Below, piece by piece: positions 1-12,525 of a DNA stretch of 37,152 bases; position 1 is the first letter of the stretch, and each line of letters begins with the position of its first letter. Source of the DNA: Patescibacteria group bacterium (lineage in GTDB: Bacteria; Patescibacteriota; Patescibacteriia; UBA9570); assembly GCA_024277435.1 (NCBI GenBank), contig JAJRVJ010000029.1, positions 1-37,152 on the forward strand, read 5' to 3'. The notes under the pieces are model-generated. The model searched no databases, was not told where the DNA came from, and worked only from the letters and a program-made list of their open reading frames with translations. Both the position numbers and the translations under genes were made by a program.

Positions 1-1035
1 TACAAAATGTCCTGCTTCTTTGTAGGCAATAGTTTTTCCAATTTCAACTTCTTCTGTTTTTGCCTCCTCAGCTTCTTCCTCAGTGATGTAGCCTTCTTCT
101 ACCATGCGATCGAGGGCAAAGTCTTTTCGTTCGTATAGTGCGTCTCTGTTTTGACTAATGTAATAGGTTGGTCGCTGCGGGATGGATGCCAGCAAAGCAG
201 ATTCGGCTAAAGACAATTCGTTAGGAGTTTTTTCAAAGTAGCTTTGAGCCGCTGCGTATACTCCCAAATTAACACCACCATATGACGCCTCATTTAAATA
301 GAATTCCAAGATAGTGTTTTTATCATACTTACGTTCTAGCTCAACAGAAAGAATGAGCTCTTTGATTTTTCGAGAGTAGGTTTTTTCATTACCAACAATT
401 GCTAGCTTTACAAACTGTTGCGTAATAGTGGATCCGCCCACCTGCTGATCGGATGCAATATTAATTCCGGCGGAACGGAGAATTCCAATAGGATCAAATC
501 CGTGATGGGTATAGAAAGTTTTGTCTTCAAGTGCAACCGTGGCATGAACCATGTTGTCTGGAATGTCTTCAATTTTTGTATATGTACGACGAACATCTTT
601 TCCTGTTTCGTACAGCAAGTTTTCACCAGTGCGATCATAAATTTTTGTGCTTTCCGCTAGTACACGACTTTCAAGTTGATCGGCGCTTGGTAAATCTTTC
701 GCATAGTATGCAAAAACACCAGCTCCAGCGAGTATACCAGTAGCTAGTAGAATGATGCCGGTAATAAAGAGTCGTTTTAACCATTTTTTCCAGCGCGGTC
801 GATTCTCTTTTTTTGAGCGCTTTTGCTCCGCTTTAGAAATTGGCTTTAAGTTGGCTCGAGAAGAGGACTTCCCTTTAGTGGCTCCTTTTGTACCAGTAGA
901 TTTCTTGGATTTCAAAACTTTCTTTGACGCATTGGGCTCAACAGAAGGTTTGTTCTTTTTTATTGAGTGAGCCGCTTTTGAAGCCTTCTTTTTCGGCGGT
1001 TCTTTAGCAGCTTTCTTTGATTGTTCATCAGACAT
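1..1035 (-). CDS. Penicillin-binding protein 1A-type transglycosylase, 3'-truncated
   Basis: Class A PBP, the membrane enzyme that polymerises lipid II (GT51) and normally cross-links peptidoglycan. The first 345 residues are visible; the reading frame leaves the window at base 1, so the transpeptidase domain is outside. A very Lys/Ser/Ala-rich cytoplasmic tail (about residues 1-85) precedes one membrane helix (about 88-110). The GT51 domain follows, with the catalytic Glu motif ALEDKTFYTHHGFD (about 168-181, Glu170), GGSTITQQ (200-207) and LEFYLNEASYGG (245-254). The last residues GHFV match the linker that opens the transpeptidase part. The ATG at 1035 is the only sensible start. A weak promoter may lie at 1047-1076 (TATAGT, 18-nt spacer, TTGGAC). 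The family call is firm. Confidence 0.95.
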   Translation of the reverse strand, partial: MSDEQSKKAAKEPPKKKASKAAHSIKKNKPSVEPNASKKVLKSKKSTGTKGATKGKSSSRANLKPISKAEQKRSKKENRPRWKKWLKRLFITGIILLATGILAGAGVFAYYAKDLPSADQLESRVLAESTKIYDRTGENLLYETGKDVRRTYTKIEDIPDNMVHATVALEDKTFYTHHGFDPIGILRSAGINIASDQQVGGSTITQQFVKLAIVGNEKTYSRKIKELILSVELERKYDKNTILEFYLNEASYGGVNLGVYAAAQSYFEKTPNELSLAESALLASIPQRPTYYISQNRDALYERKDFALDRMVEEGYITEEEAEEAKTEEVEIGKTIAYKEAGHFV

Positions 1036-2333: not shown

Positions 2334-3308
2334 TTAAGCGGCTCCACCATTTTTAGTTATTTGCTCAAGGCGTGGTTCGTACCACGCTTTTGCTTCGTTG
2401 ATGTACGCAACATTATCAGCTAGGGCTTCTTCCGGAATATCGCCAGCGGTATATTCTTTATTGAGTGCAGTTTCTATATCGTGCAGTAATCGATAGAATT
2501 TTGGTAGCCAATAACATATAGTTTGCCATAATTCTTTAGAGTTTTCTGTAGCCTCAACAATAGCATCTTGTTGTTCGGGTGTTCGCCAGAGCGTTAGCCA
2601 TAAAAATGCTAGGTCGTAATACTTACTACCTAGCTTAGCGTCTGACCAATCGATAAAGCCCACGCCATCGTTGGGAGTGTGCAATATGTTTTTTGGATTG
2701 AAATCGCCATGTACTAGCACGGGGGTTTTTAGCCAACTTTGTCCGTAGGCAGCAACAACCTCTTCGCAATAATCATAGATTGTTTCAGGGAGTCCAGCGG
2801 CTAAGGCAGGGGCGCGGTGCTCTTGCAGGTTGGTAATAAGGTCGGCTACTTGTACTGTTGGAAGCACAATGCGCTGTGAAATTTCCGAGCTGGACGACTG
2901 CATGAATTCAATGGCGCTCAATAATTGTTCGTGACCAATTTTTCTAATTTGGCCAAGCCCAGTATAAAAATAATACCATCCCAGAGGATTGCCAATAACG
3001 CTTGTATATACAAGCGCTTCAGGCTCGGAGTCATTGTAAATATATACATGCTCAGGCGTTACAAATGGTGTGGTTGGGTGCTCTGCAAAAAACTGGTTAA
3101 TAAAGGATTCTTTGGCGAATTCTTCCTTAGAGGCCTTGTCTGTATGGTTGCGAATTTTAATAATATACTCACTGTCTTGTGCGTCAACGGCTAGGGCTAC
3201 ATAGTATGAACCAGAGGTGCTCATAATATGTTTAATTGTGAATGAGCGTTCGGCGCAAATTTTTTCTACCAACGTTTCGATTGTATCTTGAGAGAATGAA
3301 CTAGCCAT
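2334..3308 (-). CDS. Aminoglycoside phosphotransferase (APH)-family kinase
   Basis: Protein-kinase-like small-molecule phosphotransferase, 324 aa. The catalytic loop VLVHGDFNPKNIL (HxDxxxxN pattern) and the following metal-binding GFIDWSDAKLG are clear, as is the downstream YYDLAFLWLTLWR typical of APH/choline-kinase-type enzymes. The substrate cannot be read from sequence; relatives phosphorylate aminoglycosides, choline, homoserine or sugars. It is the last gene of the long minus-strand operon and overlaps the end of glgA by 8 bp, so co-translation with glgA is likely. The position after glgA fits a sugar or maltose kinase role, but that is inference only. Confidence 0.85.
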   Translation of the reverse strand: MASSFSQDTIETLVEKICAERSFTIKHIMSTSGSYYVALAVDAQDSEYIIKIRNHTDKASKEEFAKESFINQFFAEHPTTPFVTPEHVYIYNDSEPEALVYTSVIGNPLGWYYFYTGLGQIRKIGHEQLLSAIEFMQSSSSEISQRIVLPTVQVADLITNLQEHRAPALAAGLPETIYDYCEEVVAAYGQSWLKTPVLVHGDFNPKNILHTPNDGVGFIDWSDAKLGSKYYDLAFLWLTLWRTPEQQDAIVEATENSKELWQTICYWLPKFYRLLHDIETALNKEYTAGDIPEEALADNVAYINEAKAWYEPRLEQITKNGGAA

Positions 3309-4779
3309 GTGTGTTTTGTAAGAGGTTGTTATAAATTTTTATATATTCACCGGCGGATGTTTTCCACGAAAAGTCTGTCTTCATACCATTGCGCTGAAGA
3401 CGACCCCATGTTTTTGGCACGGCATAAGCGGCTAAGCTACGTTGAATAGTTCGCCAGAGAGCTGCGCTGGAATAGGTTGTAAATACAAAGCCATTAGTTT
3501 TTTCAAACACTGTATTTTTTAATCCCCCGGTAGCGCGCGCGATAGGAACCGTTCCATAGCGCATAGCGATAATTTGTCCTAAGCCACAGGGCTCAAATTT
3601 TGAAGGCATTAAGAAAATGTCAGAGCTCGCGTAAATACGTTGCGCGAAAGGAGCATTAAAAATATTATGAAAGTAAAATTTATCGGGCCACTGCTTTTGC
3701 GCTGCATGGAATGGTGCCGTAAGGGAGCTGGGCCCGGTTCCTTCAAGTACGAACTGTATATCAAGTTGGGCCAGCTTTGGTAATAGCGGAGTAAGTAGAT
3801 CTAACCCTTTTTGAGAGGTAAGGCGTGATACCAGGCTAAACATTGGTACGTCCTTACGTTGTGGGAGGCCGACTTCTTTTTGAAGAGCAAGTTTATTTAT
3901 GGCCTTATTTTTTCTAACAGTACTTACCGTATAGTTTTTTTTGATAAACGCGTCTTTGCTAGGATTGAATAATTCAGTGTCGATTCCATTTAATACCCCG
4001 TATAAATCTTTCTTACGCTTTTTTAGTACACTCTCAAGCCCGTTGCCATATTCTTTAGTGAGAACTTCTTTTGCATACCGGGGGCTTACCGCTACAATTG
4101 CCTGGGCATGATCTATTCCTAAACGAATTAGGCGCGGTCCCTTTTTACGATTAAATTCAGAGCCGAATATTTTTTTAGCGTCCCATTCAAACGCTTCAAG
4201 ATATTTATGAGGCGTAGCCGCTACGATGCCAAGATTATGTAGTGTGATTACGCGCTTTATATGAGCCATTTCTGGATCGTTATGTACTAGAGCAAGCAGG
4301 GGCGCTGAATGATAATCCTGTGCGTGAATTACGCTTATAGGAAGCGAGAACTCTTTAATAGCTGTGTATACGGCAAATGAAAAGGCCATAAACCGTATGC
4401 GCTGACCAATCTTTGAGGTAGCATTTTTCTTAGTGAGTGGATCGTATACAGTATTGCCTTGATATATCGTGCCGCGGCCAAAATATTTTTTATTTTCAAA
4501 TAATAATAATGGTACGGTTGAATTTGGTAACCGACTCTCCCAAACGGTTATCTTAGTTTTTGATCCGCCAACGGTAATAGAGATAACACCAAGCTTTTTA
4601 AGTTGGCGTAACTGTTTGCGCCGTATTTCTTGATACCAAGGAATGGCAACCCAAGATTTGTTTACGTTTTTTTGTAGTGCTTTAGGTAATGAGCCTAGCA
4701 CATCTCCTAGTCCACCAGCTTTTGCAAGCGGCGTTAGCTCTGATCCGGCTAGTAGAACATTAATTGGTTGCTGTGTCAT
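3301..4779 (-). CDS. glgA: Glycogen/starch synthase (GT5)
   Basis: ADP- or UDP-glucose-dependent alpha-1,4-glucan synthase, 492 aa from the ATG at 4779. The N-terminal nucleotide-sugar loop ELTPLAKAGGLGDVLGSLP is the GT5 signature (KxGGL). The C-terminal Rossmann domain has VSRLTSQKGLDLL and the E(x7)E-type region KFEPCGLGQIIAMRYGTVPI, followed by ATGGLKNTV. An in-frame TTG at 4800 would add seven residues. ATG 4779 is preferred because an extended -10 (TGTTATACT) sits 6 nt upstream and the conserved N-terminus starts right after it. The gene lies 26 bp after a GT4 glycosyltransferase, suggesting glycogen-like polymer synthesis. No glgC, glgB or glgP is in the window. Confidence 0.93.
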   Translation of the reverse strand: MTQQPINVLLAGSELTPLAKAGGLGDVLGSLPKALQKNVNKSWVAIPWYQEIRRKQLRQLKKLGVISITVGGSKTKITVWESRLPNSTVPLLLFENKKYFGRGTIYQGNTVYDPLTKKNATSKIGQRIRFMAFSFAVYTAIKEFSLPISVIHAQDYHSAPLLALVHNDPEMAHIKRVITLHNLGIVAATPHKYLEAFEWDAKKIFGSEFNRKKGPRLIRLGIDHAQAIVAVSPRYAKEVLTKEYGNGLESVLKKRKKDLYGVLNGIDTELFNPSKDAFIKKNYTVSTVRKNKAINKLALQKEVGLPQRKDVPMFSLVSRLTSQKGLDLLTPLLPKLAQLDIQFVLEGTGPSSLTAPFHAAQKQWPDKFYFHNIFNAPFAQRIYASSDIFLMPSKFEPCGLGQIIAMRYGTVPIARATGGLKNTVFEKTNGFVFTTYSSAALWRTIQRSLAAYAVPKTWGRLQRNGMKTDFSWKTSAGEYIKIYNNLLQNTHG

Positions 4780-4785
4780 ACGTAT

Positions 4786-4794
4786 AGTATAACA
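4786..4794 (-). promoter_or_regulatory. Extended -10 promoter for glgA
   Basis: The minus strand reads TGTTATACT, an extended -10 (TGn plus TATACT), ending 6 nt before the glgA ATG. There is no good -35. If used, transcription would start at or next to the ATG, giving a leaderless mRNA internal to the operon. Confidence 0.5.
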
Positions 4795-4805
4795 CAGCAA
4801 TTGTT

Positions 4806-5885
4806 CTACCCATTGTTTTTTTTGTGCTGCTTAATGAGTTGCTTATATACGCGCTCATATCCGTCAGCCATTTTGGAGACAGTAAAATTTTCTACCACCC
4901 AATCTCTACAGGCCTGTCTATCAATGGTGTCAATTTTTCGAATAGCTTCTTTCATGCCATCTTCATCTTCCACAATAAATCCAGTTACACCATCTTTAAC
5001 TAGCTCTGGAACCGATCCACGATTAAATGCAATTACTGGCGTTCCGGTTGCCATTGCCTCAACCATTACTAGCCCAAAGGGCTCTTCCCACTCAATTGGG
5101 AATAATAAAGCCTTGGCTTGCCCCATAAATTTTGGAACTTGTCGCTTGTGTGTAAGTTCGCCTCGGTAGGTAATGTAGGGGCTCTTTAGGGCTGGGTTAA
5201 TATATTTTTCCCAATATTTTCGATAGACCTCACGTTGCAAATCGGTGGATCCAGCAAGAGCCAATTTACGCTTCATGCGACGACACACTTTAATAGCATG
5301 ATGAGCTCCTTTTGAAGGATGTAATCGACCAATGAACGCAAAGTGGTCTTGTGGTTTATCATTAAAAGGAAATTGATCTATGTCGATCCCATTATATACA
5401 ACGTCGGTATATTGAATACGCTCTGATTCGTGTCGAGTTTGCGCTTTAGAGATGGGTGCAATATATACATTAGAATATGGTACGCGCTTAATAATTTGTT
5501 GCGTAAGTATCTCAATAGGCCAATGCTGTGTCATGAGCGTAGGCTTATCTACTAAGGAAGACATAAAGAAGTGCAGATTGTTTAAATGACAGTGGAGAAT
5601 GTCGTACTCATCGATGTGGCGGTACGCCTTATTGAGTAGCGTAAGGTGATTGTATGCTCGCAGTGTTCGTTGCGAGGTCGCGGGGCCTTCAAGTTTTTCC
5701 GCTTCAAGTAGTTGGACGTGCTCTGTGCGCGCGCCAGCAAACGTGGTTTTTTTATTTCCATATATTATTACTTCATGGCCACGCGCAATTTGTTCTTCGA
5801 TAAGGGAAGACACTAGTAACCAACGACCACGATCTCCGTGGGGCGGTAATATTTGATGAGGGTTGGTGATGTGAGCAATTCTCAT
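4806..5885 (-). CDS. Glycosyltransferase family 4 (GT-B fold)
   Basis: Retaining glycosyltransferase of the GT4 group, 359 aa, cytoplasmic or membrane-associated. The N-terminal acceptor domain begins MRIAHITNP with a glycine/proline-rich loop, as in AviGT4/GlgM-like enzymes. The C-terminal donor domain carries FAFIGRLHPSKG (start of domain, about residue 180) and EEPFGLVMVEAMATGTPVIA with the E(x7)E pair, then GSVPELVKDGVTGF. ATG 5885 overlaps the TAA of the upstream retropepsin gene by one base (TAATG), a translational-coupling arrangement. Being adjacent to glgA, it might act on the same glucan, but GT4 donor and acceptor specificity cannot be predicted. Confidence 0.9.
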   Translation of the reverse strand: MRIAHITNPHQILPPHGDRGRWLLVSSLIEEQIARGHEVIIYGNKKTTFAGARTEHVQLLEAEKLEGPATSQRTLRAYNHLTLLNKAYRHIDEYDILHCHLNNLHFFMSSLVDKPTLMTQHWPIEILTQQIIKRVPYSNVYIAPISKAQTRHESERIQYTDVVYNGIDIDQFPFNDKPQDHFAFIGRLHPSKGAHHAIKVCRRMKRKLALAGSTDLQREVYRKYWEKYINPALKSPYITYRGELTHKRQVPKFMGQAKALLFPIEWEEPFGLVMVEAMATGTPVIAFNRGSVPELVKDGVTGFIVEDEDGMKEAIRKIDTIDRQACRDWVVENFTVSKMADGYERVYKQLIKQHKKNNG

Positions 5886-6370
5886 TATGCGGTTTTGTAA
5901 ACGTTTTTAGTTGGGTCGATCAAGAAGCCACCCATATCGCGTTTGCCTATCAGTACAGGATATAGAAGCATTTTGCGATCTACGATACTAGCGATAGTGG
6001 TAATTTTCTTGTTCTTTAATTTGTATTGTATTTCAACATACGGTCGTACAGTAATTCCATTAGTTGCTGGAATTACGCGCACATCATAGAGTCCGGGGAT
6101 TTGTTTTTTTAGCATAGGAGCAATCTCCTGCTTTACTTGTTTTTTTAGGGCTTTAAAATTACCTTTGTCGTAATTGAGCTTAGGAAGTTTTTTATGAAAC
6201 TCTTTATACACTTCAAGGAAGCCGATTTTTTTTGCAATACTTACATCAATGGCTGTGGTGCGGGCGCCAGTGTCAACTTTTGCATTGCGTCGAATGAATT
6301 TTCCATTTGGAAGATAGAACTTTACTTCTTCAACTAGGCCGAGGATAGGTTTTCGTTTAGTAGGCGTCAT
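5885..6370 (-). CDS. RimK-associated retropepsin-like peptidase (RimB / PF05618 family)
   Basis: Small (161 aa) single-lobe retropepsin-like protein of the family called 'ATP-dependent zinc protease', usually encoded beside RimK-type ATP-grasp ligases. The catalytic Asp motif KVDTGARTTAID lies at residues 31-42 (DTGA at 33-36). The family C-terminus is VLIGKRDMGGFLIDPTKN. Related proteins (RimB in Pseudomonas rimABK) act with RimK; proteolytic trimming of the ligated tail is the favoured idea but poorly tested. A second copy of the same domain is fused to the ATP-grasp protein at 8327-9718, which ends in the matching IGRRDVHGFLINPSK. An extended -10 lies 6 nt before the ATG, so it may be independently transcribed. 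Confidence 0.88.
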   Translation of the reverse strand: MTPTKRKPILGLVEEVKFYLPNGKFIRRNAKVDTGARTTAIDVSIAKKIGFLEVYKEFHKKLPKLNYDKGNFKALKKQVKQEIAPMLKKQIPGLYDVRVIPATNGITVRPYVEIQYKLKNKKITTIASIVDRKMLLYPVLIGKRDMGGFLIDPTKNVYKTA

Positions 6371-6376
6371 ATTGTT

Positions 6377-6385
6377 ATTATAGCA
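6377..6385 (-). promoter_or_regulatory. Extended -10 promoter for the stand-alone retropepsin gene
   Basis: The minus strand reads TGCTATAAT, a consensus -10 with extended TGn, ending 6 nt before ATG 6370. The -35 is weak. It predicts a leaderless transcript for this gene within the operon. Confidence 0.55.
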
Positions 6386-7354
6386 TTACATTGTAAACAT
6401 TTCTTTTAATATTGCGACTGCCGTATTCCTGGGCCGACCTTCATAGGGAAGGCGCTGCAACCCAAGCATCGGGTTGGCATTCAGCTCTACGATCGTATAG
6501 CTATTTTCCGTTTGCCCAACCGTATAGTCAGTTGTCATTAAATCGATTCCTGCAAACGGCAATTCTGGGATAGAATTAACAGCGGCAATAGCAATCTTTT
6601 GAATAGAGGGGTGGATATCATCGGTGATATCAATGCTGTCGCCACCAGCCGATATGTTAGAAACCTTTCGAAGATAGACCCGCTCACCGTCCGGCGGCAC
6701 GGACTTTGTTGTATAGCCAGATTCTTCCAGTATCGATAATTCAAGGTCGTCCAATTTAAGCTGCCGCAAGACCTTGTCTGTATTGTCTGTGTGGCGACGG
6801 GGGTCGGCATTGGCTAAATCAACTAGCTCACGAACGGTATGCTTCCCATCGGCCAGTATAGACGCAGGTCGCCGCAAAGTACCAGCCAAGAATTGTTCAC
6901 GAGTGGCAATCAAGCGCACCTCGCTGCCGGTAAAAAACTCTTCCACAACCACAATATCGTAGTCCGGCTGCAGTTGTTGGACGGCTGGAATCGTAGTTTC
7001 GACATTTGAGATACCAACGGTAATGTCAGCACCATGCGACCCTTTGAATGGCTTTACTACCACAGGGAAGGTTAAGTTCTTACAGTACTTAGCAATATCT
7101 TCAGTGGTGGAGCCTTTATAAAACTCTTCCCACCTTGGAGTATTGATATTCGCTGCGCGTAACAGGCGCTTGGTGATATGCTTCTCATTGCAACTCACAA
7201 AGCCAATGGTGCCTAGTGCAGTTGTGTGACTTTTATCAACGAGGATGGTTTTTTTGTTGTGTGTAAAACGGTGGATTGGCGTATCGGCTAGTTGTTCAAC
7301 AACAATACCTAACTCTTCGGCCGCTTCTTTAAATACATCGAGGGATAACATCAT
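6386..7354 (-). CDS. ATP-grasp amide ligase, GshF/cyanophycin-synthetase-like (copy 2)
   Basis: ATP-grasp enzyme of 322 aa that resembles the glutathione-synthetase half of GshF and the ATP-grasp core of CphA. Such enzymes activate a carboxylate as acyl-phosphate and join it to an amine. Visible are the N-terminal lid/linker ITKRLLRAANINTPRWEEF, the ATP-binding VVVKPFKGSHGADITVGIS (about 100-118), EEFFTGSEVRL, the GshF-like YLRKVSNISAGGDSIDITDD (about 226-245) and the Mg2+ motif ELNANPMLGLQRLPYEG near the C-terminus. There is no gamma-glutamylcysteine ligase domain, so it is not a GshF. It lies 4 bp after its paralogue (7359-8324). The substrate is unknown. Confidence 0.88.
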   Translation of the reverse strand: MMLSLDVFKEAAEELGIVVEQLADTPIHRFTHNKKTILVDKSHTTALGTIGFVSCNEKHITKRLLRAANINTPRWEEFYKGSTTEDIAKYCKNLTFPVVVKPFKGSHGADITVGISNVETTIPAVQQLQPDYDIVVVEEFFTGSEVRLIATREQFLAGTLRRPASILADGKHTVRELVDLANADPRRHTDNTDKVLRQLKLDDLELSILEESGYTTKSVPPDGERVYLRKVSNISAGGDSIDITDDIHPSIQKIAIAAVNSIPELPFAGIDLMTTDYTVGQTENSYTIVELNANPMLGLQRLPYEGRPRNTAVAILKEMFTM

Positions 7355-7358
7355 AGGC

Positions 7359-8324
7359 TTAACGAGCGTTTGGAAATAGTTCTAATAATATGCCGTTGGC
7401 AACATTGCGTGATTTACCTTCGAAGGGCTTGATATGCATACCGACCATTGGGTTTGAGTTAACCTCGAGAATTGTGTAGTTGTTGGGAGTTTGTTTTATC
7501 GTATACTCTTTGGTCATAAAATCTAAGCCGCCGAAGGGTAGGCCGGGAATAGCCTGAATGGCTTTTACAGCAATCTGCTTTACTGATGAATGAATAATGT
7601 CTGTGACATCAATGCTATCTCCGCCAGCTGCTAAGTTTGATACAGCGCGTAAGTATACGCGTTCATCCGCCTTAGGTTTCGAACTAAGTGTATAGCCCTG
7701 TTTTTTTAATATCCGCTTAGCGTCAGCATCTATAAGGATTGGGTAGAGCTCTGGCTGCTTACGTGTGCGTTTGGTGTGTGAATTCTTTTTCTTTACAAGT
7801 TGCGCAATGGTATTTTCCCCATTTCCCAGTACAGAGGCTGGTCGTCGCCAGATTGCCCCTAGGAATTTTTTACGGGTAGCGAGTAGGCGAATTTCAGTAC
7901 CCTCAAACATTTCTTCAGCCAATATAACATGATGATTGTCTTGCAGCTCTTTAATAGCCCGAATCGTATGACTCAGCGTAGTAATGCCTATAGTAATGTT
8001 CCTCCCATGAGTGCCGCTCTGTGGCTTTATCACTATAGGGTAGTTAAGTTGCTTGGCGTACTTACGAATATCAGCGCTCGATGATTCGCTGTAAAACTCT
8101 CTCCATGCCGAGGTGCTCAGACCAGCGTTTAATAGCAGCTGCTTGGTTATTTGTTTATTATCGGTACTGATAAGTGCGATACCAGTATGCCCGGATGTGA
8201 AGCCATCATTAAAGTACACAACTTTTTTTCCATGCCGAAACTCATGAAACGGTGTGTTTGGAACTTTCTGTACAGAAATGTTGAGGTGTTTAGCTTCTGC
8301 CACATAATAGTTGATTGATGGCAT
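7359..8324 (-). CDS. ATP-grasp amide ligase, GshF/cyanophycin-synthetase-like (copy 1)
   Basis: Paralogue of the next gene, 321 aa with the same layout: KQITKQLLLNAGLSTSAWREF, the ATP loop IVIKPQSGTHGRNITIGIT, AEEMFEGTEIRLLATRKKFL, VYLRAVSNLAAGGDSIDVTD, and the metal/ATP motif EVNSNPMVGMHIKPFEGKSR, which is very close to the GshF C-terminus. The two copies are clearly homologous over their full length but diverged in the central region (residues about 170-210 are lysine-rich here), as expected if they add different residues. It starts 2 bp after the ATP-grasp/retropepsin fusion gene, so the genes are probably translationally coupled. The role in glutathione-like or peptide-tag synthesis is inferred. 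Confidence 0.88.
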   Translation of the reverse strand: MPSINYYVAEAKHLNISVQKVPNTPFHEFRHGKKVVYFNDGFTSGHTGIALISTDNKQITKQLLLNAGLSTSAWREFYSESSSADIRKYAKQLNYPIVIKPQSGTHGRNITIGITTLSHTIRAIKELQDNHHVILAEEMFEGTEIRLLATRKKFLGAIWRRPASVLGNGENTIAQLVKKKNSHTKRTRKQPELYPILIDADAKRILKKQGYTLSSKPKADERVYLRAVSNLAAGGDSIDVTDIIHSSVKQIAVKAIQAIPGLPFGGLDFMTKEYTIKQTPNNYTILEVNSNPMVGMHIKPFEGKSRNVANGILLELFPNAR

Positions 8325-8326
8325 AA

Positions 8327-9718
8327 TTATTTAGTCTTACTTGGATTAATCAGGAAGCCATGTACATCGCGGCGACCTATAATAATAGGTTGTGATAATT
8401 TGTTGTCCATCGCAATTGCCACGTTTGTTTTTATTTCCTTACCACCAATTTTTATAGTTAGAGGCACTTTTGGACGAATGGTGTACTTGCCGCCACTTCG
8501 TACCGCGACAATATCTACAAGATCTTCATGTAGCCCTTTAATGCTCTGTCGGAAGGAGTCTTCTACTTGGCGCGCATCGCTGGCAGATATTGCACCTGGT
8601 AATACGATGTTGTCAAGAGCCTTGAGTAAGCTGGTAAATCCTAAGCGATGGGCCAAGTCCTTCGTAATGGTTGTTGATAATAATCCGGTGTCAATACGGG
8701 CGCGCATCGATTGGATTTGGCCAGAGTGGTTAGTGACGTCAATTACTTCGAATACCCCTAGCACTGGCATGTCATAATTTGATTCAACGTGGCTGCCGAA
8801 TAAGTCCTTACTTACTTTTAAGCCTTTTGTGATGGAGGTAATATCGAGGCCTTCAATACGTTCTAAGCGATCGCGCAGTGAAATGTGATTTACATTTTGT
8901 ATTTCCAATCCGGGATGACCATTTACTTCAAGTACAACTGGCCCCATTTTGCGGTCTACCACGATATCTATACCAGCATATCCAAGCCCTACGCTCCGTT
9001 GCGCTTCAGCTGAGATGCGTAACATTTCATCCCAGTATGGAATGCGAATGCCACGCAACGGTGTTCCGTAGTCTGGATGCACATCAATTTCTCCCTGCCC
9101 CTTTACAGCGGCGTATGTAGTAATACCAGTTTCTAAATCGATGCCTACACCAACGCCACCAAGAGCTAGATTGGCTTTACCGCCAGATTTTTTTGTTGGT
9201 AGGCGTAGTTCAGCAATTACGGGTACAGTATTAAATACAATAATTCGTACATCGGGAATACCTTTATAACTGATGTTTTTAAAATGCTCAGATAGGGTTA
9301 GTCGCTCTTCAAAATAGGCGACGTCAGGAATATTTGAAATTGAGAAGTTACCATCCAAAATATTACTTACACGTATTGTTAAATCTTCTTCCGTATATTG
9401 TTCATCGCCGCCGCCAATCCATTTTCCATTTTTGCCTTTGCCATACACAATTAATATACCGTTTCCACCAAGGCCAAAATTTGGTTTTAATACGAAGCTA
9501 TTTGGTAGTGAGTTCCAATCAAAATTGAATAAGTCTTCGCGACTATCAATAACGCCGTATAGCTTTGCGGTAGGTAAACCACGTTCAAGTAAACGCCCTT
9601 TAGTGGCTAGTTTATTACGAGCTAGCTGAACAGCGTTTCTACGATTATATGGGCGAATGAACTGCAGGTTGCGGGCATTCATCCCAAGGATTTGATGTCC
9701 TCGAGCGAGTAGTCCCAT
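8327..9718 (-). CDS. RimK-related ATP-grasp ligase fused to a retropepsin-like domain
   Basis: Two-domain protein, 463 aa. Residues about 1-290 are an ATP-grasp of the 'alpha-L-glutamate ligase-like' type (rimK_rel_E_lig, related to sugar-transfer-associated ATP-grasp): GMNARNLQFIRPYNRR at the N-terminus, FVLKPNFGLGGNGILIV, YKGIPDVRIIVFNTVPVIAELRLPT, and the metal motif VVLEVNGHPGLEIQN. Residues about 310-463 are a retropepsin-like domain with RARIDTGLLSTTITKDLA (DTG near 343-345) and the C-terminal IGRRDVHGFLINPSK. In most genomes these are separate neighbouring genes; the fusion supports a joint substrate. It starts 2 bp after the stop of the PKD-7TM gene. The family assignment is strong; the ligated amino acid is unknown. 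Confidence 0.9.
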   Translation of the reverse strand: MGLLARGHQILGMNARNLQFIRPYNRRNAVQLARNKLATKGRLLERGLPTAKLYGVIDSREDLFNFDWNSLPNSFVLKPNFGLGGNGILIVYGKGKNGKWIGGGDEQYTEEDLTIRVSNILDGNFSISNIPDVAYFEERLTLSEHFKNISYKGIPDVRIIVFNTVPVIAELRLPTKKSGGKANLALGGVGVGIDLETGITTYAAVKGQGEIDVHPDYGTPLRGIRIPYWDEMLRISAEAQRSVGLGYAGIDIVVDRKMGPVVLEVNGHPGLEIQNVNHISLRDRLERIEGLDITSITKGLKVSKDLFGSHVESNYDMPVLGVFEVIDVTNHSGQIQSMRARIDTGLLSTTITKDLAHRLGFTSLLKALDNIVLPGAISASDARQVEDSFRQSIKGLHEDLVDIVAVRSGGKYTIRPKVPLTIKIGGKEIKTNVAIAMDNKLSQPIIIGRRDVHGFLINPSKTK

Positions 9719-9720
9719 GG

Positions 9721-11340
9721 TTAGGTTTTTTTAGAGAAGAGTGTTTTAAAGCGCAGGTATTCAGATAGTCGTAAGCCTGTAAACCGACCAAGAATAATAT
9801 TCAACACGATAGTGATAAGTACAAGCTCTGGGTACGCCATAATGAATGTTTCAAAGGTATCCCACGTTACTATTGAGTAGCTCACAATTGCAAGCACTAG
9901 TGTTTCTATCGTAAGGATGATAGCAGTGTTTTGACCTTGTTCAATTTGGGCCTCTACAAATTTCTCGGTAAGAATAATCATTACAAGAATTGGGAAAATA
10001 GAAATTGATAATAATCCTGTTGCATGAAAATAGCTACCTACAATAAATAGTGCGAAAATAGCAAAGGCAACAACCGTGAGCACAATAGCCATGCGCGGCA
10101 TGTAGAGGAGTCGTAGACGACGAGCTGCCAAACGCGCTGCTGTAGCAGTAAGTAGTAGAACGGCAAAAATGAGTAGGCCGTATTGTAATCGCGTAATAAC
10201 AAATATAAGAGTTATTAATGTTGGCACATAAATACCAAACGCGCGCACACCTACAACTTGCCGACCAAAGGCAATAATAGTGGCCACTACGGGGAGGATA
10301 AGCAGTAAGAAGATACTATCTGGACTCACTCCTTCATTAATAAGGTAGTTAACGCCGTACGAAATAAAGTTAATAGGGTTAATAGTTCCTAGTACTCGCT
10401 GGCTATGGCTGCCAATAATTTCATATTCAAACCCCTGGGCCTTTAGGTTATTAATAATATTTTCAGGATTTGGATCGCGCAGTAACTCTTCTAGTGATTC
10501 CGTGGTTGTGAGTAGTACGTATTTTGGCTCTAAAACATTAAAGGTGTTTTGTGCGAGGCGTGACAGGGCTGGTCCAGCCTGCTTTTCATCAACACGCACA
10601 ATAGCTTTTTGTCCAAAGCTATTACTTGAAGTGGTGACGTCATCATTGCCTGAATCAAAAATGCGACCAACTTCTGACAGGGCATCAAGGCCAATATTTT
10701 TTTCTGTCCATGTAATTACTAGATCCGCCTGATCAAGATCTTCCTCAGATGTAATTAGGCGCTCAGCAAGATTGCGCGCAACTGTGTAGGTTGGTTGGTC
10801 TGGATCTTTTGGTCGCATCACAATTACTAGCGTTCCATATCGTGCGGCGTATTCTTTATAGTGTCGGGTGGTTTCTCGAGCAACGGTATCGTCAGTTAAT
10901 AACACTACAACATCTTTGGCTACAGATACAAGAATGGAGTCTTTCGAGGTCTCGGAGTCATCAGATACGGTAAGGGTGGCCTTATAAATACCGGGCTCAT
11001 CATAGATGTGTGATGCTTCAAGCGCATTAAAGGTTTGGCCATCGCCAAAGTCCCAGGCGTAGGATAACTCTTGGTCAATTGGGCCAGTTGATCCAGAAGC
11101 ATCAAATACCACATTACGTTCAACGGCAACTGTTTTGTCTTTTCCGGCCTTAGCTACTAAGGGGGTCGATTCAATAATCTCTTCTTCCTTAATATTATCT
11201 TCATCGGTAGCCGAGTCGGACTCTTCAACTCCTATTACTTCATCAATAATTTCCGCATCTTGGGCATGCGCTGGTAAGGTAAATAACCCCACTTGAATAA
11301 GTAGGCTAAGAAGCAGTATTGAAAGGAAGTGTTTTTTCAT
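9721..11340 (-). CDS. PKD-domain protein with C-terminal 7TM module of the 'inactive transglutaminase' family
   Basis: Predicted inner-membrane protein, 539 aa. It has a signal peptide ending near residue 26 (PAHA), an acidic spacer, and a PKD domain at about 65-145 (SYAWDFGDGQTFN, YDEPGIYKATLTVSDD). A further extracytoplasmic region of about 190 residues follows, then seven or so membrane helices from about residue 340 to 520. The 7TM part carries the family hallmarks VVGVRAFGIYVPTLITL, LRLLYMPRMAIVLTVV and ISIFPILVMIILTEK (Pfam 7TM_transglut). That module is usually fused to an inactive transglutaminase-like domain; here a PKD domain is found instead. It is encoded 5 bp after ruvC and 2 bp before the ATP-grasp/retropepsin fusion, its usual partner. 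Probable receptor or scaffold for the ligase system. Confidence 0.87.
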   Translation of the reverse strand: MKKHFLSILLLSLLIQVGLFTLPAHAQDAEIIDEVIGVEESDSATDEDNIKEEEIIESTPLVAKAGKDKTVAVERNVVFDASGSTGPIDQELSYAWDFGDGQTFNALEASHIYDEPGIYKATLTVSDDSETSKDSILVSVAKDVVVLLTDDTVARETTRHYKEYAARYGTLVIVMRPKDPDQPTYTVARNLAERLITSEEDLDQADLVITWTEKNIGLDALSEVGRIFDSGNDDVTTSSNSFGQKAIVRVDEKQAGPALSRLAQNTFNVLEPKYVLLTTTESLEELLRDPNPENIINNLKAQGFEYEIIGSHSQRVLGTINPINFISYGVNYLINEGVSPDSIFLLLILPVVATIIAFGRQVVGVRAFGIYVPTLITLIFVITRLQYGLLIFAVLLLTATAARLAARRLRLLYMPRMAIVLTVVAFAIFALFIVGSYFHATGLLSISIFPILVMIILTEKFVEAQIEQGQNTAIILTIETLVLAIVSYSIVTWDTFETFIMAYPELVLITIVLNIILGRFTGLRLSEYLRFKTLFSKKT

Positions 11341-11345
11341 ACGTA

Positions 11346-11840
11346 TTATATTAATCGGCTTACAGCGATGGCAATTGCTAATGCATCAGCCGCATCATCT
11401 GGCTGAGGTATTGCATCGAGTTTTAAAATTTGTTGAGTCATATACTGCACTTGTTTTTTGTTGGCCGCTCCGTACCCTGTGGTTGATTGTTTTATTTGAG
11501 TAGGAGTGAGCTCAATTAATGCATTGTTATGATGAGCTAGGGCTAGTAAAATCACTCCGCGAGCTTGGTTAACGTCAGTAGCTGTCTTTACATTTTTTGA
11601 ATAAAATACTTTTTCGCATCCTGCTACAGTTGGCTTATGCTGTGTAAGTAATTTTTCAAGGTCGCTATACATCTGGGCTAGGCGATCAACTAATGGTGTG
11701 TGAGCAGCTGTACGAATCACTCCGTATTCAAGAACAGTGGGCGTATCTGAGGCGTCAGAGAGTTCAAGAATTCCGTATCCAGTTATGGCATAACCAGGGT
11801 CAATGCCAATTACTCGTTTGCCCTCTTTAGAATTTCCCAT
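11346..11840 (-). CDS. ruvC: Holliday junction resolvase RuvC
   Basis: Crossover junction endonuclease, 164 aa, the usual length; it cleaves Holliday junctions with RuvAB. Acidic active-site residues are visible in VIGIDPGYAITGYG (first Asp), AGCEKVFYSKN (Glu) and PDDAADALAIAI (last Asp pair). The ATG at 11840 overlaps the 3' end of yebC by 14 bp, the widespread yebC-ruvC order. ruvA and ruvB are not in the window. A short N-terminal tail (MGNSKEGK) precedes the conserved strand, so the exact start is slightly uncertain. Confidence 0.95.
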   Translation of the reverse strand: MGNSKEGKRVIGIDPGYAITGYGILELSDASDTPTVLEYGVIRTAAHTPLVDRLAQMYSDLEKLLTQHKPTVAGCEKVFYSKNVKTATDVNQARGVILLALAHHNNALIELTPTQIKQSTTGYGAANKKQVQYMTQQILKLDAIPQPDDAADALAIAIAVSRLI

Positions 11841-12525
11841 TATGGGTTACCTCTACTACGTCTTCATTATTTTCAAGTGTTTCAAGGAGGCTTATCGCGC
11901 TTGCCTTTGTTTTGTCATCAACGGTAGTGCGTGTTTCTGGAACAAGGTCAACAGATGCGTATACAACCGTGTCCCCTAGCGCTTCTTTTACAGCATCTAG
12001 TGTTTTTGGTTCAGTATAAATTGTTAGGCCGCCATCTTCTTCAACAATGTCTTCAGCTCCGGAATCCATGGCTAGTAACTGCGTTTCATCGCTAGCGTCT
12101 TCAGTGCGAAGGATGCCGCGTTGTTTAAACATGTACCCTACAGCGCCTGGTTTAGCAAGCTTTCCACCACCTTTATTAAAGGTAGTTTTAATAAAGGTTC
12201 CAGTGCGATTAGTATTATCCGTTGCGCAACGAATAATTATGGCTAATCCGCCCGGTCCGTATCCTTCGTATGTGTGTTCTTCAATTTGTTGGCCGGGAAG
12301 TTCTCCGGCACCACGCAAAACCGCTCGTTCGATATTAGCTTTAGGCATATTTGCTGATTTTGCAGCATCGATGGCAGAGCGAAGGGAGGAGTTCATTTCT
12401 GGATCCTTGCCCTGTTTAGCCGCTAAACTAATATTTTTAGAAAGCTTAGTAAACAGCACTCCGCGCTTAGCATCCGCCGATCCTTTTGCCCGCTTAATTG
12501 TTGCCCATTTGGAATGTCCTGACAT
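11827..12525 (-). CDS. yebC: YebC/TACO1-family protein
   Basis: Conserved cytoplasmic protein, 232 aa, of the YebC/PmpR/TACO1 family. It was long annotated as a transcriptional regulator; recent work links members to translation of proline-rich stretches. The signature N-terminus MSGHSKWATIKRAKG is present, followed by DAKRGVLFTKLSKNI, YEGYGPGGLAIII and TDNTNRT. It is the first gene of the long minus-strand operon and has the best promoter of that operon directly upstream. The start is fixed by the invariant MSGHSKW. Confidence 0.96.
   Translation of the reverse strand: MSGHSKWATIKRAKGSADAKRGVLFTKLSKNISLAAKQGKDPEMNSSLRSAIDAAKSANMPKANIERAVLRGAGELPGQQIEEHTYEGYGPGGLAIIIRCATDNTNRTGTFIKTTFNKGGGKLAKPGAVGYMFKQRGILRTEDASDETQLLAMDSGAEDIVEEDGGLTIYTEPKTLDAVKEALGDTVVYASVDLVPETRTTVDDKTKASAISLLETLENNEDVVEVTHNGKF

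Follow-up and report, generated by a model that had tools for sequence, protein, structure and literature searches.

A putative variant of the Rlo ligase-peptidase operon in a Patescibacterial genome and the apparent exchange of its peptidase domain in relatives

What might a bacterium build, and what might it take apart, with three ATP-grasp ligases, two retropepsins and a seven-transmembrane (7TM) protein encoded side by side? We addressed this question for a 37,152-nucleotide stretch of DNA (hereafter the window) from a Patescibacteria group bacterium (assembly GCA_024277435.1, contig JAJRVJ010000029.1), whose genome is 1.33 Mb in size and 97% complete. Five open reading frames (ORFs) lie on the minus strand at 5885-11340 with gaps of 2, 2, 4 and 15 bp, and encode an RloB-like membrane protein (539 aa, 9721-11340), an RloC-type ATP-grasp ligase fused to a retropepsin (463 aa, 8327-9718), two accessory ligases, AG1 (321 aa, 7359-8324) and AG2 (322 aa, 6386-7354), and a stand-alone retropepsin (161 aa, 5885-6370). 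The ORF positions agreed with the places and spacing given by the first-pass annotation, and Pfam and NCBIfam matches bore out its count of three ligase and two peptidase domains in an amide-ligase/peptidase/7TM module. Judged from sequence comparison, the five-gene core appears to be a variant of the Rlo system and not new in kind.

First, the second gene product combines a ligase and a peptidase in one chain, with the ATP-grasp part at residues 1-300 and the retropepsin at residues 310-463 (DTG at 343-345). It scored above the gathering score of PF14397 (9e-61), and its match to TIGR02291 (1e-76, 258 bits) did not reach the curated cut-off of 314 bits. The closest named relatives were proteins of Candidatus Kerfeldbacteria (64% and 61%), together with an unclassified 'bacterium' record (69%), and the source is thus very likely a Patescibacterium of Kerfeldbacteria type. 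The ATP- and Mg-binding residues of the ligases, on which the earlier interpretation had been made to depend, were in place: K78, E264 and N266 of RloC were invariant in an alignment with 13 relatives, and AG1 and AG2 carry the K-P loop, E-E and E-V/L-N residues. The retropepsin domain of the fusion was weak when searched alone (PF13650, 0.008; PF05618, 0.03) and became firm by family alignment, while the stand-alone retropepsin matched PF05618 (8e-7), with RloA3 as the closest NCBIfam model (4e-7). Both retropepsins retain the catalytic DTG (RIDTG and KVDTG, the latter extending to VDTGA in the stand-alone protein). Since no hydrophobic N-terminal segment was found in RloC-retropepsin, AG1, AG2 or the stand-alone retropepsin, all four enzymes are expected to be cytoplasmic.

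Second, the rloABC operon of Pseudomonas aeruginosa encodes the retropepsin RloA, the 7TM inactive transglutaminase RloB and the ATP-grasp protein RloC (PMC12239564). The first-pass annotation had named the clustering of RimK-related ATP-grasp, retropepsin and 7TM genes as known, but had missed that the core matches this experimentally studied operon, in that a PF14397/TIGR02291 RloC, a PF14402 7TM protein encoded 2 bp away and a PF05618-kind retropepsin share one operon. However, the gene order is B-C(A) here and A-B-C in Rlo, the retropepsin forms one cytoplasmic chain with RloC whereas RloA of P. aeruginosa is exported, and two CphA-like ligases and a second retropepsin have been added. The RloB-like protein also differs, with PKD and Rossmann-like domains in place of the inactive transglutaminase. 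It consists of a signal peptide, a PKD domain (approximately 60-141; PF18911, 3e-21), a Rossmann-like alpha/beta ectodomain (approximately 143-310), the 7TM part (343-534; PF14402, 1e-30) and a basic C-terminus, and the ectodomain is situated outside the cell. An AlphaFold model gave the ectodomain a predicted local distance difference test score of approximately 90, yet Foldseek comparison with PDB returned only PKD domains as meaningful matches and no clear relative of the Rossmann-like domain. With Legionella adelaidensis and Aeromonas caviae as canonical rlo comparators, PF14400 (inactive transglutaminase) had no match at E <= 1 in our RloB-like protein, whereas the same search detected it in the RloB of Legionella (1e-44) and Aeromonas (2e-59); identity to Aeromonas RloB was 26% across the 7TM part. 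Because neither the transglutaminase ectodomain nor an exported retropepsin was found, we consider the locus a variant and not a standard member. The standard rloABC on the L. adelaidensis plasmid NZ_LR134414 has an RloA annotated without a signal peptide, and cytoplasmic RloA may therefore exist beyond Patescibacteria.

To place the locus in its phylum, we read gene order in 158 non-redundant RloC-containing loci, many of which had been found via RloB. RloB was immediately upstream of RloC in 154 of these loci, in part by construction, and the loci found through RloC alone likewise had RloB upstream. All ten genomes of the order contained PF14402, as did 110 of the 380 genomes sampled across the phylum. 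A C-terminal peptidase-like domain was found in every one of the 158 RloC proteins, so that the pairing of ligase and peptidase is obligatory in this set. Additional ligases, which might have been a peculiarity of our contig, turned out to be common: approximately half of the loci (81 of 158) had one to five further ATP-grasp genes within 4 kb downstream (0-5 over all loci), and 71 had one directly 3' of RloC, in diverse families. A CphA-like ligase gene was located downstream in 35 loci, and CphA was the best match for all ten such genes checked from diverse families; other downstream ATP-grasp genes were RimK/glutathione-synthetase-like. Thus, the order recurs in Patescibacteria, as the first-pass annotation had required. 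In the sister genomes G001-G003 the second retropepsin was kept and the AG genes were absent from the equivalent place, and in G005 (locus L021) a CphA-like ligase was fused to a retropepsin of the second type. The stand-alone retropepsin of the window aligned with this fused domain (9e-45, 48% identity) and is its ortholog. Because a CphA-like ligase and a retropepsin of the stand-alone type share a chain in L021, each ligase type seems to have its own eraser, and we read the pattern as two ligase-eraser pairs. In addition, an unannotated 584-aa ORF on plasmid CP007061 of Halobacterium sp. DL1 (4164-5918 of locus L225) joins an RloB-type 7TM part (51-243) to an RloC ATP-grasp part (286-557). 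It is predicted to be an archaeal membrane-bound ligase, and this single chain would place the ligase at the inner face beside RloB.

The most surprising result lay outside the window and concerned the RloC ligase itself, on which a MATCAP-type peptidase appears to have taken the place of the retropepsin. In 32 relatives, the RloC ligase is followed in the same chain first by a retropepsin-like stretch and then by a MATCAP domain (PF08014, TIGR02421). When the state of the D[TS]G motif was scored from an alignment of the 158 RloC proteins, it was intact in 110 of the 111 proteins without MATCAP nearby and lost in 28 of the 32 MATCAP fusions. Where MATCAP was encoded by the next gene, the motif was lost in six of nine proteins and intact in the other three, and where it lay further along, all six proteins were intact. 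By comparison, HExxxH was retained in all 32 fusions and in 19 separate MATCAP genes. On the RloC tree, the fusions comprised L101 and a single supported clade of 31 rows, in one of which the gene is split, and the loci with adjacent MATCAP included a clade of five. Within the large MATCAP clade the motif had decayed variously (DPH, NPL, APE, DTS and others), with four members keeping D[TS]G. We read this as MATCAP having arrived first and then relaxed the retropepsin, and as the motif was lost mostly where MATCAP was fused and kept in nearly all proteins without MATCAP nearby, the ligase seems to need some eraser. For a model of the triple-domain protein of L062, Foldseek recovered MATCAP and RimK; the dead retropepsin domain was not among the top 50 matches, and hence its identity rests on profile matches. 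MATCAP itself was not found in the window genome, in a search run without a positive control. No paper describing the exchange was found in a literature search that did not cover the 2009 amidoligase survey.

Known systems offer a chemistry for these parts. RloA and RimB cleave polyglutamate (PMC12239564, PMC11957791), and RimB, which removes polyglutamate from RpsF (PMC11957791), also boosts polyglutamate synthesis by RimK and exists as a RimB-RimK hybrid (PMC12239564, PMC11957791). Like our fusion, RimBK joins a glutamate ligase of the ATP-grasp type and a cytoplasmic retropepsin in a single chain (PMC11957791), but there the retropepsin is N-terminal on RimK, whereas here it is C-terminal on RloC and accompanied by a 7TM partner. 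Membership of the RimK family was rejected (TIGR00768, 51 bits vs a cut-off of 143; PRK10446, 21 vs 331). In humans, TMCP1/MATCAP and TMCP2 remove C-terminal residues of tubulin and shorten polyglutamate chains (PMC10499314). The 32 fusions of a PF08014 HExxxH domain to an ATP-grasp domain share with the TTL/TTLL and MATCAP/TMCP enzymes the logic of a ligase and a tail carboxypeptidase, although they are bacterial and fused. The gene for ribosomal protein S6 (RpsF) of the window genome (contig C31, near 8077-8343; L222) has a 217-aa open frame with a long acidic C-terminal extension. The tail ends in TDIETKL and not in Glu-Glu, and S6 as acceptor was therefore unsupported. A search of the same genome for the PF14401 RLAN domain returned no match, and its control was likewise silent.

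Taken together, we favor, at about even confidence, the view that the five genes form a Patescibacterial Rlo variant acting as a membrane-coupled writer and eraser of a nonribosomal, amide-linked and probably glutamate-rich peptide or tail. RloB would anchor or receive the product at the inner membrane, with its PKD/Rossmann-like domain outside, and RloC would use ATP at the cytoplasmic face for the stepwise addition of amino acids to the C-terminal end of a peptide or protein located at RloB. The fused retropepsin would trim the chain of RloC in the same compartment. AG1 and AG2 would contribute additional residues, probably of a different type, with the stand-alone retropepsin as the eraser that belongs to these CphA-like ligases. 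Tail writing and erasing on glutamate is favored because retropepsins and MATCAP both act on glutamate tails and RloC resembles the TIGR02291 alpha-L-glutamate ligases. In P. aeruginosa, deletion of rloB or rloC rescues loss of the peptidases (PMC12239564), which is the epistasis one would expect if whatever RloB and RloC make has to be trimmed. Glutamate as the residue added, the acceptor, the direction of transport or signal across the membrane, and a contribution to coping with envelope or osmotic stress are inferred. The first-pass annotation had envisaged a short amide-linked tag built in steps and trimmed, with input from outside through the 7TM protein. Building and trimming fit the joining of ligase and peptidase and the eraser swap, but ordered steps by three ligases and an inward signal found no support, and RloB might just as well export the product, act as a scaffold or serve as the acceptor site.

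Several observations weigh against this view. The exact five-gene set occurred in this genome only among those examined. The retropepsin is exported in P. aeruginosa (RloA) and cytoplasmic here, and cleavage may therefore affect a different step. We know of no substrate or product for any RloC and, to our knowledge, the bacterial relatives of MATCAP have no known substrates either. With respect to the exchange, four MATCAP fusions retained D[TS]G; strict exclusivity of a fused MATCAP and an intact motif held in the first 119 proteins and was dropped when a second sample showed these exceptions. In the opposite direction, the RloC-retropepsin of L032 (6633-8057), with a phosphoesterase, an inositol monophosphatase and a FecR-domain protein as neighbors, was the sole protein with a broken motif (DST) and no MATCAP nearby. 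Moreover, the tree supported only about three gains of MATCAP with loss of the aspartic site, so that a Fisher value for the association is overstated, and the pair test (three concordant, no discordant) comprised too few events for significance. For this reason we consider the exchange strongly suggested rather than proven.

The five genes do not form a closed unit. The minus-strand run, in which adjacent genes overlap or are separated by only a few bases, extends to yebC (11827-12525) and ruvC (11346-11840; PF02075, 2e-45) upstream, and to a GT4 glycosyltransferase gene (4806-5885; PF00534, 8e-26), glgA (3301-4785) and an APH-like gene (2334-3308) downstream. The GT4 gene overlaps the downstream end of the stand-alone retropepsin gene by 1 bp, probably shares a transcript with the five genes and was retained beside the operon in L025 and L021; it is a candidate member of the system. 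Conservation was also evident upstream, as ruvC preceded rloB in 73 tabulated loci and yebC in 59, and other recurrent neighbors included a MATCAP-like peptidase, YdjC, DUF3541 and RuvA. Genes for class A penicillin-binding proteins (PBPs) lie close to the operon in the window (1-1035, Transgly) and in L025 (2496-5369). An Rfam search gave no match.

Alternative explanations depend largely on what AG1 and AG2 make. These proteins are paralogues (44% identity) and were first described as GshF-like; as ATP-grasp ligases with intact motifs they stand, but their best NCBIfam match was cyanophycin synthetase over residues 160-473 approximately (TIGR02068; 2e-67 over positions 159-473 of 862 for AG1 and 1e-68 for AG2; 228-232 bits vs a cut-off of 850), followed by GshF (194-197 bits) and N-acetylglutaminylglutamine synthetase (138-148 bits). 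They aligned across the full ATP-grasp half of PDB 7lgm (1e-42) and 3ln7 (5e-41). The latter two families suggest a small soluble peptide, an osmolyte or redox metabolite resembling N-acetylglutaminylglutamine or glutathione, that the peptidases salvage while RloB exports it or senses turgor. A GNAT gene in seven related operons and the hypo-osmotic sensitivity of P. aeruginosa rlo mutants (PMC12239564) are consistent with such a product, but a GNAT, an amidotransferase and a GshA partner are all missing from the window operon, and retropepsins of the RloA family require runs of at least eight glutamates and not dipeptides (PMC12239564), which makes this explanation unlikely.

Cell-wall modification, either by peptide additions to peptidoglycan precursors or through a PBP regulator, appears rather improbable. 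A class A PBP gene follows the rlo-like operon in 35 tabulated loci and is also found near ours, FemAB is present in six loci, and rlo mutants show shape and beta-lactam phenotypes (PMC12239564). However, the neighbors also include the housekeeping genes yebC, ruvC, ruvA and tyrS, synteny alone could explain the PBP, and neither retropepsins nor MATCAP are known to act on the peptides of peptidoglycan. Synthesis by the CphA-like ligases of a cyanophycin-like or other polyamino acid for storage or secretion, with priming by RloC and breakdown by the retropepsins, would suit enzymes that correspond to the ATP-grasp half of cyanophycin synthetase. In L120, L124 and L178, nearby genes in one run match both CphA halves (the second being residues 481-860), possibly a split CphA inside an rlo-like operon of Moranbacteria-type genomes. 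Nevertheless, we consider this quite improbable. AG1 and AG2 are two adjacent paralogues that differ from CphA1 and GshF in having no Mur-ligase or GshA half. The Mur-ligase half was absent from the operon and was not found in the window genome (searched without a positive control), and an identity as cyanophycin synthetase was accordingly rejected. Cyanophycinase-like peptidases were not seen, and a duplicated ATP-grasp half is not known to act as a polymerase by itself. Finally, that only RloB and RloC cooperate, next to an unrelated peptide pathway of AG1, AG2 and the last retropepsin, would account for the missing AG genes of G001-G003, where the second retropepsin is kept, and for the variable number of extra ligases, but is very improbable given the ATP-grasp genes that directly follow RloC in diverse families and the AG-retropepsin fusion in L021.

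Returning to the Rlo-variant writer and eraser, a broader and more tentative proposal, which we hold with less than even confidence, is that Patescibacteria run a membrane-tethered cycle of writing and erasing C-terminal tails. Either a retropepsin or a MATCAP-type metallocarboxypeptidase could fill the role of eraser, ligase and eraser would often share one polypeptide, and two ligase-eraser pairs would be present in the window. The cycle would be the prokaryotic equivalent of that run by TTL(L) and MATCAP on tubulin. Whereas RloB has been described as 96% proteobacterial (PMC12239564), we find it in more than a quarter of the Patescibacterial genomes sampled. In Pseudomonas the operon affects stress tolerance, biofilms and antibiotic sensitivity. 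The natural fusions indicate which ligase and which eraser work on one and the same chain. The exchange of retropepsin for MATCAP would imply that the task of the eraser is generic tail removal, and the system may therefore represent a bacterial relative of tubulin-tail chemistry.

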